The notes beneath the pieces are model-generated. The model was not told the origin of the DNA. It saw only the letters and a list, made by a program, of their open reading frames with translations, and searched no databases. A stretch of DNA of 49,955 bases from a virus, in IMG/VR virus record IMGVR_UViG_3300048916_000082, positions 1 through 49,955 of that record; one strand, written 5' to 3'. Of this stretch, positions 1,297-34,724 are shown one piece after another (positions within the stretch are counted from its first letter, which is position 1; every line of letters begins with the position of its first letter). Position numbers and translations under genes: made by a program.

Positions 1297-1749
1297 TTAC
1301 GGGGTGACCGTGGTGAACTCCCACTCGCCGTCCGATTCGAACTGCAGCGAGAGCGTCGCAAAGTTCTCGTCGCCGCCGGTGATCGCCTGGTTGACCAGCT
1401 TGGCCGGGCCCTCGAAATAACCCTGGAACACCTCGTCGTCGGCCGGTTCGGTGTAGTAGAACCGGTAGTTCTTGGTGATGCCAACCGCGGCATTGATCAT
1501 GTCCAGCTGGGCGCGGTTGAGCGAGCCTTCGCCCGAGAGCGACCACTGCCGCCCGGTGGTGATCAGGCGCCGGATCGGGATGTCTTCAGGGTCGGCACAA
1601 TCGCGGGTGAACTGGTCGGAGGTGTTGACCTGCTGGGTGAAGCTGCGGGTGGAGATGCCACACAGGCCGGTAAAGGTCTCGGTCGGGGTCGCGCCGTCGC
1701 CCATGGCGAGGACAAAATAGGTGCCGCGAATGATGTCGGGCTGGGCCAT
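1297..1749 (-). CDS. major tail tube protein
   Basis: A 150-residue protein (MAQPDIIRGTYFVLAMGDGA) of the length and all-beta character of siphovirus tail tube subunits, with the phrases RSFTQQVNTSDQFTRDCADP and RRLITTGRQWSLSGEGSLN typical of this family. It lies between the tail completion gene and the chaperones. Unlike the neighbouring promoter-proximal genes it has a 58-nt leader and a GGAG Shine-Dalgarno about 10 nt before the ATG, in keeping with the high expression a major tail protein needs. Confidence 0.8.
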   Translation of the reverse strand: MAQPDIIRGTYFVLAMGDGATPTETFTGLCGISTRSFTQQVNTSDQFTRDCADPEDIPIRRLITTGRQWSLSGEGSLNRAQLDMINAAVGITKNYRFYYTEPADDEVFQGYFEGPAKLVNQAITGGDENFATLSLQFESDGEWEFTTVTP

Positions 1750-1807
1750 CGTTTCGGTCTCCGTCCAAGGGATGCACCGCCATCACGGCGGGGGAACTTG
1801 AGACGCG

Positions 1808-1841
1808 ACAATACTCGCGCCTCCCGGCCGGTTGTAGGTTC
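1808..1841 (-). promoter_or_regulatory. putative phage late promoter (tail tube)
   Basis: GAACCTACA (1841-1833), 19 nt, TATTGT (1813-1808) on the minus strand. It sits in the gap after the tail completion gene and about 60 nt before the tail tube ATG. Same motif and spacing as the other late sites, but with a leader. Confidence 0.6.
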
Positions 1842-1846
1842 GCTGG

Positions 1847-2236
1847 TCAGCCGCACTCGCGCGGAACCCGTGCGGAGAGGGTGACGATGGCCTGCCACTC
1901 GTCCTCGCCGGCGAGCGTACGGGTGCCGGTCCACGTCAGGTAAGCCTTGCGGCCGTCGGTCAGCGTGAGGACCTTGCCGTCGAGGCTTGCCCCGACCGCC
2001 TCCGCAATCGAGTTCACGTCGTCGGTGAAGGGGTCCTTGCTGAAGATGTGGAGGGGAGCTGCGATGTCGCCGGGCACCGCATCGCTCATCCCGTAGCGCA
2101 GGAACGGCCAGGTGGGCTGGGCCGGGGCCTTTTCGCCATAGGACCGCGCGCCGATCGCCGTCGCCGTGACCGCAGCGTCAGCCCTCAGGTGGGCGATGAT
2201 CGCCCGCCGCAGCATCAGGATCGGCGCGACGCTCAT
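1847..2236 (-). CDS. tail completion / terminator protein (DUF3168-like)
   Basis: A 129-residue protein: N-terminal helix (MLRRAIIAHLRADAAVTA), then RSYGEKAPAQPTWPFLRYG, SKDPFTDDVNSIAEAVGASLDG and a beta C-terminus. This matches the DUF3168 (HK97 gp17-like) tail terminator pattern, a ring that caps the tail tube at the neck. Its place between the gp10-like protein and the tail tube is syntenic with HK97-type phages. Confidence 0.7.
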   Translation of the reverse strand: MSVAPILMLRRAIIAHLRADAAVTATAIGARSYGEKAPAQPTWPFLRYGMSDAVPGDIAAPLHIFSKDPFTDDVNSIAEAVGASLDGKVLTLTDGRKAYLTWTGTRTLAGEDEWQAIVTLSARVPRECG

Positions 2237-2238
2237 CG

Positions 2239-2598
2239 TTATCGTTCGACGGCAGGAGCCACGGCGTCGCCACTGTCGGCGCGATCATGGTGAGCCAGAT
2301 CCGCTCGATCCACTCCAGCAGGTTGTCCCGGGTCGGCGGCTGCTCCATTGGATTCGGGTGTAGCAGTCTTGGGCGCGGGTGTCGCCTTTTTCACCTTCGG
2401 CGGGCGGATCCGCTTGGTGGGCGTGCCTTCCTTGGCCGGCGGCGCCATTTCGACGCCGTAGCCTCGCGCGACGGCAGCGTCGGCCACCTCGTCCTTGAGC
2501 AGCACCTCGCCGAGGTCGCGCACGACGGTGACGGCGCTGGCCCGGGGCCAATGGTAGTTGAACGGGACCGTGGTCATGTTGATGCGGCGGACACCCAT
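2239..2598 (-). CDS. hypothetical protein in head-tail connector block
   Basis: 119 residues, not recognised. The N-terminal half (MTTVPFNYHWPRASAVTVVRDLGEVLL) looks folded. The C-terminal half is low complexity, rich in K, P, A and T. It lies between the gp10-like gene and the DUF3168 gene, 3 nt before the latter's ATG, so it is part of the connector/tail operon and probably a minor virion or assembly protein (inference). Confidence 0.6.
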   Translation of the reverse strand: MGVRRINMTTVPFNYHWPRASAVTVVRDLGEVLLKDEVADAAVARGYGVEMAPPAKEGTPTKRIRPPKVKKATPAPKTATPESNGAAADPGQPAGVDRADLAHHDRADSGDAVAPAVER

Positions 2599-2602
2599 GG
2601 CG

Positions 2603-3013
2603 TCATCCTTTCCTGATTGCGGCGCTGATCGCCTTGCGGACGTTCTCGGTCACTTCCTTGCGTTTGGCGCGCGCGGCGGGGTTCATGAACGGGCGCGCCG
2701 CCATCTTCGACGTGCCGTATTCGAGCGCGGCTGAGTATTTTGCGTTGCTGGCCACCTCGACCCGCAGTGGCCCGGTCTGGGTCACGTCGATGTTGGTCCT
2801 GAGGTGCCCCGTGTCTTCGTTCGGGGGCTCGCCGGGGCGCGAGGGCACGTGGTTCTTGCCGCTGACCGCGCCTTCCGTGATCGAATGCGCGGCATAGGCG
2901 CGGATCGATTCGCCGCCGACGAACAGCGCGTGGCCGACCAGGGCGATCTTCTCCTGGCCAGCTAGGCGGGTGAGGCGGTCGGCCACGCCCTTCGGTCCGC
3001 TGATCTTCGGCAT
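2603..3013 (-). CDS. HK97 gp10-like tail/neck protein
   Basis: 136 residues with the gp10-family layout: basic N-terminus, helix KGVADRLTRLAGQEKIALVGHALFVG, then the family-typical SRPGEPPNEDTGHLRTNIDVTQ and SALEYGTSKMAARPFMNPA. Members are neck proteins joining head and tail. It overlaps the preceding stop by one base (TGATG). Confidence 0.8.
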   Translation of the reverse strand: MPKISGPKGVADRLTRLAGQEKIALVGHALFVGGESIRAYAAHSITEGAVSGKNHVPSRPGEPPNEDTGHLRTNIDVTQTGPLRVEVASNAKYSAALEYGTSKMAARPFMNPAARAKRKEVTENVRKAISAAIRKG

Positions 3014-32175: not shown

Positions 32176-32423
32176 CCCTCCTCCTCACCGAAGAGCAGGC
32201 CGCCGAGCGCCTCAACCTCTGCACTCGGACCCTGCGCAAGGCGAGGCAGGAGGGCGCACTGACCTACGTCTTGATTGGACGGGCGGTCCGCTACACAGTC
32301 GATGACCTGGCCGCCTTCGTCGAGGGCGCGAAACGTCAGGATCAGCCATGCCCCAAACCCAAGACCAACGTGCGCGCGCCAAAGCGCAGGGGGAATATCG
32401 TGCCCTTTACCGCGAGGCCCTGA
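32172..32423 (+). CDS. excisionase-like HTH protein
   Basis: 83 residues from ATG 32172. MTLLLTEEQAAERLNLCTRT, LRKARQEGALTYVLIGRAVR, YTVDDLAAFVE is a MerR/Xis-type winged helix (HTH_17). Ends one base before the integrase ATG, the usual site of the recombination directionality factor. A basic tail follows the HTH. Confidence 0.75.
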   Translation: MTLLLTEEQAAERLNLCTRTLRKARQEGALTYVLIGRAVRYTVDDLAAFVEGAKRQDQPCPKPKTNVRAPKRRGNIVPFTARP

Positions 32424-32424
32424 C

Positions 32425-33483
32425 ATGAGCGTGTTCGAGAAGAAGGGCTCGCCCTATTTCCATTTCGACTTCCAGTTCAAAGGCCAGCGCCACCACGGCT
32501 CGACCGGTTGCACGACGCGCCGCGCTGCTGAGGACTTCGAGCGACGCGAGCGCCAACGTGCCGCCCTTCCTTCCCAGAGCCGCCCGCCGATCACTCTGGA
32601 CGAGGCATGCGGGCTCTACCGGGAACACGCCGAGCATCTGCCGAGCTGGCCGACGATCAAATATCTGCTGGCGGCCCTCGTGAAGGGCCTTGGTGCGAAT
32701 CGGGTCCTCTCGGGCATCAGCCAGCGGGACCTGCAGGTCTATTTTGCTCGGCGCAGGGCAGGGCGATCCAATGCCAGCGTCAACCGGGAGATCGAGAATG
32801 CCCGGTCAGTGTGGCGCCACGCCGCAGGCGCGCGCTATGACGTTGGCGAGATCCCCGAATGGAAGCGCCTGTTTCTGAAGGTCTCCAAATCGCCGCCGCG
32901 CGAGTTGGCTGCGGCAACCGAGGAAACCGCGCTATTCGATGCGCTGTCCGGCGATGCATTCGATGTCGTTGCCTTCGCGCTGGAGAGCGGTTGGCGCCGC
33001 GCCGAGGTCATCGGCCTACGCTGGGCCGATTGCAACCTGCCGAGGCTCGAGGCCACGACCCGGATCAAGGGCGGTGATACCGTCGTGCGCCCGCTCACGG
33101 CCTCATTGGTAACGATCATCGCCAATCAGCCGAAGGTCGGGCCATTCGTATTCACCTACGTCTGCCGCAAGAGCCGCGGGAAGCGCAGGGCAGGGCAGCG
33201 TTACCCGATGACCGCGACCGCGCTGCGCACGAGGTTCGATGAGGCGCGCGAGACGGCTGAGCTGGAAGGCTTCCGCTTCCACGACCTGCGCCACACCGCA
33301 GCGACGAGGATCGTGCGCGAGACCGGCTCACTGGCGGCCGCCAAGGAAGCGCTCAAGCACAGCCACATCAACACCACTCTGCGCTACGCCCACGTCCTCG
33401 CGGACGACGTTCGCAAGGCCCTGGATGCAGCGAAGTCCCGAACTATTCCCGAACAGCGCCGCGCGCGTCAGTCGAAAGCCTAG
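32425..33483 (+). CDS. int: tyrosine integrase
   Basis: 352 residues from ATG 32425. Arm-binding N-terminus (GSPYFHFDFQFKGQRHHGST), core-binding domain about residues 55-150, catalytic domain with Arg191/Arg192 (SGWRRAEVIGLRW), HxxR as H286-R289 (FHDLRHTAATR), a His near 312-314 (LKHSHINTT) and nucleophile Tyr321 (LRYAHV). It integrates the phage at a tRNA-Val gene. attP lies immediately downstream. Confidence 0.95.
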   Translation: MSVFEKKGSPYFHFDFQFKGQRHHGSTGCTTRRAAEDFERRERQRAALPSQSRPPITLDEACGLYREHAEHLPSWPTIKYLLAALVKGLGANRVLSGISQRDLQVYFARRRAGRSNASVNREIENARSVWRHAAGARYDVGEIPEWKRLFLKVSKSPPRELAAATEETALFDALSGDAFDVVAFALESGWRRAEVIGLRWADCNLPRLEATTRIKGGDTVVRPLTASLVTIIANQPKVGPFVFTYVCRKSRGKRRAGQRYPMTATALRTRFDEARETAELEGFRFHDLRHTAATRIVRETGSLAAAKEALKHSHINTTLRYAHVLADDVRKALDAAKSRTIPEQRRARQSKA

Positions 33484-33675
33484 GAATTCCGCATGTTTCA
33501 GGGTGACAGAAATTCGGGGTGTAAACGAGATGCTCTACCAACTGAGCTAAGCGCCCGCGCCGCGGGAAGCCGCGCCTTTGCGACAGTTTCTGCCGATCGT
33601 CAACCGGGCGCAAACGGAACAGAGCGGGGCCAACCGGAACATCGCGGCACCCTAAGTCCCGAAATAGTCCCGAAG
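33434..33675. other. attP: tRNA-Val 5' half flanked by arm-type repeats
   Basis: Core 33518-33556 is, on the minus strand, nucleotides 1 to about 38 of a tRNA: acceptor strand GGGCGCT, complete D arm (GCTC/GAGC) and anticodon loop TTTACAC, anticodon UAC (valine). After that the sequence leaves the tRNA pattern. Two similar elements flank it: 33434-33454 and 33655-33675, each AGTCCCGAA plus a second TCCCGAA 11 bp on, 18 of 21 positions identical. They are likely integrase arm sites. In the following 33557-33848 stretch I see no gene. Confidence 0.8.
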
Positions 33676-33848
33676 TGGCCGGCGTGCTTCTGGGTAAACC
33701 CCGCTTTTGCCCCGAAGCCGCACTCGGCGGGGATTCCTGATCTCCGGGAGCTTCAAACCGACCGGCAGAATTGCGCGATCGCCGGGTCGGGCGTTCAAAC
33801 CGAGATCGATTGCCTGTCTCTCCCTACGGGTATGGTGGGGGAGGTGGC

Positions 33849-34724
33849 ATGAGCGATCCTTTTCTCATCACCGGCCCGGCGCTCATCAGCTTCTCAGGCG
33901 GCAGGACCAGCGCCTACATGCTCTGGCGTATCCTCCAGGCGCACGGCGGCAGGCTGCCTGATGACGTGCACGTGACCTTCGCCAACACCGGCAAGGAGCG
34001 CGAGGAGACCCTGCGCTTCGTCCACGAGTGCGGCACGCGCTGGGGTGTGCGGGTGCGGTGGCTGGAATGGCGAACGCGGCGCACGAAGGACGATGAGGGC
34101 GCGGTGATCCCGTTCGCCGATCGGTACGACGAGGTTGGGTTCAACAGCGCCTCACGCGATGGCGCACCATTCGCCGAACTGATCCGAGTCAAGGGCTACG
34201 CACCCAACAGCGTGACCCGGTTTTGCACCGACGAACTCAAAATCAAGGTCATGCGCAACTTCATGCAGGCGCAGGGCTATGATCGCTGGACGAACATCAT
34301 CGGGCTTCGCGCGGATGAAATGCACCGGGTTCTCAAGTCACGCGCCCGGTCGGACAGCGGGAAGGAGCGCTGGGTCAACCGCCAACCGCTCGCCGATGCT
34401 GGCGTCACCAACCGCATGGTTCGCGCGTTCTGGAAGGAGCAGCCCTTCGACCTGCAACTGCTTCCCTTCGAGGGCAACTGCGACGGCTGCTTCCTCAAGG
34501 CCCGTCCGAAGCTGTGGGAGATCGAGCGGACCGCACCGGGCACCCTGCAATGGTGGAGCGACATGGAGACGGTCGCTGGTGGCCGCTTCGTCACCGAATA
34601 CAGCTACGCCGAATTGATCCAGGACGTGCGCCGTCAGCCTGATCTGTTCGCGGGCGGCCTATTCGATGACGACCCCGACATGGACGCTGAGTGCGGCCTC
34701 TGGTGCGCCGGGGAAGCCGCCTGA
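33849..34724 (+). CDS. PAPS reductase-like ATP pyrophosphatase protein
   Basis: 291 residues. N-terminal PP-loop ISFSGGRTSAYM (13-24), VHVTFANTGKEREETLRFVH, SVTRFCTDELKIKVMRNFM and a C-terminal cysteine pair in NCDGCFLKARPKLWEIER. These define the phosphoadenosine phosphosulfate reductase family as found in many phages. The phage form has no proven substrate, and roles in sulfur-based DNA or tRNA modification are proposed. A strong GGGGAGG ribosome site is present. First gene past attP, its GC and codon use are like its neighbours. Confidence 0.85.
   Translation: MSDPFLITGPALISFSGGRTSAYMLWRILQAHGGRLPDDVHVTFANTGKEREETLRFVHECGTRWGVRVRWLEWRTRRTKDDEGAVIPFADRYDEVGFNSASRDGAPFAELIRVKGYAPNSVTRFCTDELKIKVMRNFMQAQGYDRWTNIIGLRADEMHRVLKSRARSDSGKERWVNRQPLADAGVTNRMVRAFWKEQPFDLQLLPFEGNCDGCFLKARPKLWEIERTAPGTLQWWSDMETVAGGRFVTEYSYAELIQDVRRQPDLFAGGLFDDDPDMDAECGLWCAGEAA

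Follow-up and report, generated by a model that had tools for sequence, protein, structure and literature searches.

Most elements that target tRNA genes keep the host promoter, and the upkeep of an essential tRNA by elements that carry a 5′ half has mostly been assumed. The phage attachment region described here contains the 5′ half of a tRNA-Val gene, and the question it raises is what drives transcription of the tRNA gene that such a phage rebuilds upon integration. Considering, at the level of sequence, (i) the structure of the attachment site, (ii) the junctions in lysogens of related phages, (iii) the single-copy status of the target gene, (iv) the conservation of a promoter, (v) a prophage scar and (vi) a prophage remnant, we hold it very probable that the phage integrates at the anticodon loop, cuts the host promoter off and drives the rebuilt tRNA gene with a promoter carried in attP.

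The window, i.e. the whole stretch of DNA analysed, is the full IMG/VR virus record IMGVR_UViG_3300048916_000082 (positions 1 to 49,955; 49,955 bp), which is linear and lacks terminal repeats. Its minus strand encodes terminase, portal and head protease in the left part and tail proteins in the right part, so that the record resembles an opened phage genome, its attachment region lying centrally, and not the edge of a prophage. As part of the same reading, and with the same high probability, its owner would be a temperate phage of sphingomonads. The central region contains the following elements:

32275–33483, plus strand: tyrosine recombinase (integrase) gene, 402 amino acids (PF00589, E=1.1e-20; PHROG integrase, E=7.9e-46)
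33518–33556, minus strand: attP core, nucleotides 1–39 of tRNA-Val(UAC), an exact match to S. aquatilis tRNA-Val nucleotides 1–39
33771–34724, plus strand: phosphoadenosine phosphosulfate reductase-like gene, the next gene on the promoter side (PHROG 424, E=2.7e-53)

The 3′ end of the integrase gene faces the attachment core, whose start lies 34 bp from the integrase stop codon. An integrase identical to that of the window is encoded by a second virus contig (L006). A palindrome near the integrase stop (33474–33489) was considered as a terminator and rejected, as it resembles the conserved end codons of the integrase gene.

The first-pass annotation had described the core as tRNA-Val from base 1 through the anticodon loop, and the comparison with a sphingomonad genome bears this out. 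The 39-nucleotide sequence GGGCGCTTAGCTCAGTTGGTAGAGCATCTCGTTTACACC has a single occurrence in the record, at 33518–33556 on the minus strand (a control pattern gave 0 matches), and corresponds to nucleotides 1–39 of the intact tRNA-Val(UAC) gene of Sphingomonas aquatilis DSM 15581 (locus L035). The mismatch between the two starts at nucleotide 40, directly 3′ of the anticodon loop. As ARAGORN detects no complete tRNA gene in the whole window, the tRNA segment is truly a half. The crossover probably takes place in the 7-bp anticodon loop TTTACAC; in most lysogens of the relatives introduced below, the attL and attR halves are identical over 38–42 nucleotides.

A tRNA half next to an integrase gene could be a chance match or a decayed fragment that has no role in integration. 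Related integrase loci (n = 18, from 4 Sphingomonadales genomes and 14 virus contigs) argue strongly against this. The same tRNA-Val 5′ half is present near or beyond the 3′ end of the integrase gene in 17 of the 18, and in these 17 loci similarity to the host gene ends with GTTTACAC or at most a few bases away. The eighteenth (L014) contains no match to the tRNA half. A pattern scan of virus contigs found many further halves with the integrase gene convergent on them (47–70% identity). The recurrence of the half, its place and its boundary, together with its presence at both prophage ends, refutes a fortuitous origin, which we regard as having practically no chance of being correct.

Similar halves were also encountered in less expected settings. 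A phage recorded as infecting Synechococcus (L158, PP438430.1) has a tRNA-Val half and a promoter of the sphingomonad type, flanked by an integrase of 59% identity, and the integrase of OM868076.1 is as similar as that of this phage; the true host of L158 may be a sphingomonad in the Synechococcus culture. A group of AT-rich phage contigs (L055, L068, L069, L074, L093, L108, L120, L121, L123, L136, L139, L141, L145 and L147) carries a tRNA-Val(UAC) 5′ half that begins with GGGTGTTTAGC. Their integrase is distant and shares its coding strand with the half; in most of them a TTGCAA-N17-TAAAAC-like element precedes the half. This group is apparently a separate instance, in which transcription from the tRNA promoter would enter the integrase gene.

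The junctions created by integration were studied in lysogens of relatives, whose integrases are about 47–65% identical to that of the window, and we infer the integration of the window phage itself from these relatives. A search of the relatives' own genomes found pairs of sites 36–42 kb apart in G001, G003, G004 and G013; in each pair, a truncated half beside the integrase gene is matched by an intact tRNA-Val(UAC) gene with different upstream DNA. Both prophage ends lie on one contig in eight genomes (G001, G003, G004, G013, G050, G074, G086 and G213), and both junctions are present on two contigs in a further three (G110, G358 and G370). In the one-contig lysogens, the host 5′ half is left beside the integrase gene and the intact tRNA-Val(UAC) gene stands at the far end, so that an intact tRNA gene and, in matching orientation, a displaced fragment bound the prophage of each of the eight. 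This fragment comprises the 5′ part of the gene and is located upstream of the rebuilt one. The DNA upstream of the intact gene in lysogens is non-native and of phage type. A winged-helix gene precedes the truncated half in 3 of 5 site pairs and, among 80 sampled host genomes, is found directly before tRNA-Val in 20, which identifies the side of the truncated half as the native host side. Thus the matching attB and the attL and attR junctions, which the first-pass annotation had proposed to look for, are found in relatives at tRNA-Val(UAC), and its expectation that integration joins the host 3′ half to upstream phage DNA can be seen directly in these lysogens. In one of them (G050; L160/L173), the ends are only about 2.5 kb apart with a related integrase between them, and this is either a miniature element or a remnant.

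From these junctions, the following course of integration can be proposed. The integrase would catalyse recombination between attP and the anticodon loop of the host's single tRNA-Val(UAC) gene. Because attP brings a 5′ half, the host promoter and the host 5′ half would be stranded beside the integrase gene as a dead fragment, and at the other end the phage 5′ half and the host 3′ half would together restore a functional gene. In tRNA-dependent lysogeny (Fionnbharth type), integration likewise takes place in the anticodon loop and removes the promoter from the host tRNA (PMC10865867), but there the host tRNA is destroyed and complemented by a whole phage tRNA gene. Such phages encode a complete tRNA of the isotype that they disrupt, and their core of about 10 bp is too short to restore the host tRNA gene. 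The window has neither: it encodes 0 tRNA genes, its core measures about 39 bp, and an intact tRNA gene is rebuilt at attR in the relatives. For this phage, complementation by a whole tRNA gene is refuted and retains a negligible probability.

A tRNA-Val(UAC) 5′ half is present in 345 of 401 Sphingomonadaceae genomes, by our count once in 330 and twice in 15. In nine of the 15 two-copy genomes, the truncated half adjoins a related integrase gene; another (G379) contains an integrase fragment. The 3′ half, scanned with 3 mismatches allowed, occurs exactly once in each of the 13 genomes tested, so the hybrid is the sole tRNA-Val(UAC) gene. By standard decoding rules, no other tRNA would read GUA. 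Since the only gene of this type has phage-type DNA upstream, the phage must supply its promoter, as the first-pass annotation had argued; the single-copy hybrid gene and a promoter at a nearly fixed position in nearly all relatives agree with that claim.

G208 was rejected as a two-copy lysogen because it carries two different complete tRNA-Val genes. At its locus L269, the upstream arm of tRNA-Val is of phage type and a different tyrosine recombinase gene (1699–2775, minus strand) abuts the 3′ side, so that this tRNA gene may be a target from either side. Displaced tRNA-Val 5′ halves lie about 43 kb from the intact gene in G019 (L169/L182) and possibly about 25 kb from it, across a contig end, in G308 (L165/L178). 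The 1.5 kb examined around either displaced half contained no related integrase; both are possibly other elements with the same trick.

Of 15 lysogen pairs, 14 have a fully complementary acceptor stem formed by the phage 5′ strand and the host 3′ strand, and this match spans three versions of pair 6–67. The exception is the MAG G002 (L020, L034), in which the phage half reads GGGCGC and the host half GGGCGA. The resulting C6–U67 mismatch would give the hybrid a weaker predicted fold; strain mixing is a possible cause, as the ends are on different contigs.

A candidate for the promoter that the phage must supply was found by a −35/−10 model trained exclusively on 80 host tRNA-Val upstream sequences, the consensus of which is TTG(A/C)C - 16 or 17 nt - TA(A/G)(A/G)(G/T)G. 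In the window, this host-trained model identifies:

33557–33574, minus strand: leader from the −10 hexamer to tRNA G1, 18 nucleotides (17–19 in most relatives)
33575–33580, minus strand: −10-like hexamer CAAAGG
33598–33603, minus strand: −35 hexamer TTGACG, 17 nucleotides from the −10 hexamer

The element, TTGACG-N17-CAAAGG, ends 18 nucleotides before G1 and has a model score of 12.9; a score of 12.9 or higher occurs with a frequency of 0.0005 (0.05%) among 4000 random 70-nucleotide stretches of the window. The upstream sequences of 37 other phage loci (attP or attR) have a median score of 14.8 and all exceed the 95th percentile of the null, with the qualification that they are mutually related and do not amount to 37 independent tests. 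Their spacer is mostly 16 nucleotides long and their distance to the tRNA mostly 17–19 nucleotides. The minus-strand TTGACG had been noticed before, roughly 40–45 nucleotides ahead of the tRNA 5′ end, and the model places it 42–47 nucleotides before G1. The accompanying remark that no strong −10 is visible is right about strength, as the window hexamer is weaker than that of most relatives, in which TAAATG and TAGAAG are commoner; a −10-like hexamer does nonetheless exist 17 nucleotides from TTGACG. A strict scan for E. coli-type σ70 promoters gave no match at the site. We infer that the phage element is a host-type σ70 promoter from which, in the lysogen, the rebuilt tRNA gene would be transcribed.

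The weak −10 hexamer and the failure of the strict σ70 scan would also suit a different explanation, according to which the rebuilt tRNA gene is transcribed by read-through from upstream phage genes and the TTGAC element is incidental. However, the neighbouring gene at 33771–34724 is transcribed away from the tRNA half, so that an upstream operon is unlikely to supply read-through transcripts. The element furthermore stands 17–19 nucleotides from the tRNA in most relatives and is similar to native host tRNA-Val promoters. In one genome, the element persists in the absence of phage genes. Here, in G105 (L271, C1:771024-771102), an arm and a promoter of phage type stand before a single intact tRNA-Val(UAC) gene, and the host winged-helix gene ends 151 nucleotides upstream of the tRNA gene. 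The arm model score of this gene is 24.7, compared to a maximum of 2.4 and a median of −15.3 for 80 host genes, and no second copy of the 5′ half was found in the genome. G105 is an apparent prophage scar, in which the prophage would have been lost and the phage promoter kept. Taken together, these data leave read-through a very slim chance. The last codons of the G105 winged-helix gene are unlike those of other hosts, as if a deletion had ended there.

A prophage remnant is present in G379. Only 1.8 kb is left of this prophage, including the integrase fragment; the displaced native half has two substitutions, and the phage-fed hybrid gene is intact. If the phage promoter were silent, the cells of G105 and G379 would have no working tRNA-Val(UAC). 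These two natural deletions argue that the phage promoter works and indicate that a host may live on it permanently. Single-copy tRNA-Val genes with a full phage-type arm and promoter upstream were also observed in G041 (L270) and G092 (L273), where no displaced half was found; these are either fossil integrations or assembly gaps.

In attP, the element is directed through the core into the convergent integrase gene, and it could serve mainly the free phage, with an antisense transcript into the integrase 3′ end limiting integrase and the feeding of the tRNA being secondary. The similarity of the element to host tRNA promoters and its retention in the scar and remnant genomes, which have no functional integrase gene, speak against this as the main role, and we consider it improbable, if somewhat less so than read-through. 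Antisense transcription and tRNA feeding are not mutually exclusive. Our preferred reading remains that the attP promoter feeds the rebuilt tRNA gene.

The surroundings of the promoter suggest a further consequence of this arrangement. The first-pass annotation had set the limits of attP at 33434–33675, and these coincide with two outer arm-type repeats, between which a phased array of GTTCC repeats was found (positions relative to tRNA nucleotide 1):

33433–33453, no strand: arm-type repeat pair AAGTCCCGAACTATTCCCGAA on the integrase side, overlapping the integrase gene end; direct repeat D1, +104/+115
33616–33620, minus strand: GTTCC repeat at −64, member of a phased array that may be bound by excisionase or integrase
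33636–33640, minus strand: GTTCC repeat at −84
33654–33674, no strand: promoter-side arm-type repeat pair AAGTCCCGAAATAGTCCCGAA; direct repeat D1, −118/−107, in the same place in most relatives

The outer repeats are pairs of TTCGGGAC spaced 11 bp apart, at −118/−107 and, on the integrase side, at +104/+115. In relatives, the GTTCC array proceeds in 10-bp steps at about −94/−84/−74/−64, and GTTCC at −70 to −30 is present in 27 of 38 phage sequences compared to 4 of 80 host sequences. The geometry of the arms and of the GTTCC array is nearly fixed across relatives, with the exception of L080 and L140, which the arm model does not fit. If the analogy with lambda applies, integrase would bind the outer repeats as arm sites, and excisionase the GTTCC array. 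The promoter (−47 to −19) is located between the GTTCC repeats and the core (+1 to +39), so that it is within the attP complex. As the arm and GTTCC sites flank the promoter so closely, we tentatively suggest that binding of integrase and excisionase at induction shuts off tRNA-Val(UAC), an essential tRNA whose promoter would then be part of a recombination complex, and that repeated integration and decay of members of this phage clade would permanently exchange tRNA-Val promoters across sphingomonads, as in G105; this is a possibility that we rate below even chances.

With a recombinase gene beside a tRNA-matching attP core, the window phage fits the type of tyrosine integrases that use tRNA genes. 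The canonical anticodon-loop integrases, which carry the 3′ half and are found in most mycobacteriophages, share with it a tyrosine integrase, a 30–45 bp core and a tRNA rebuilt at one junction, but they retain the host promoter that the type described here cuts off (PMC10865867). Carriage of a 5′ half is rare, not unprecedented. In the Islander collection, 159 of 3919 genomic islands have a 5′ tDNA fragment; as here, insertion takes place inside the tRNA gene and the 5′ fragment is displaced, so that the rebuilt gene is without its native promoter (PMC4383910). The word 'promoter' is absent from the text found on these islands, whereas the present case includes a promoter, its position in attP and its persistence after prophage loss. 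In the archaeal plasmid pTN3 family, the tRNA is also rebuilt apart from its promoter, and a review notes that such 5′-half cases are seldom encountered in bacteria (PMC5495485, PMC8371274). There, the att site lies inside the integrase gene, which is split on integration, whereas the integrase gene of the window is whole and faces the core from one side, with a dedicated bacterial promoter on the other. Our literature search for bacterial 5′-half tRNA integration with promoter evidence returned nothing closer, the examples of Williams 2002 being taken from PMC8371274. Integration of ICEKp1 likewise alters which promoter reads across the tRNA junction, in the opposite sense: there a host tRNA promoter drives the integrase gene, whereas here an element promoter would drive a host tRNA (PMC13023037). 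Relative to these systems, what appears to be new is that a promoter lies inside attP, that its geometry varies little across a phage clade and that it is kept once the prophage has been lost. These features outline a route for phages to rewire core host promoters and offer a simple system for studying possible control of a host tRNA by a prophage.
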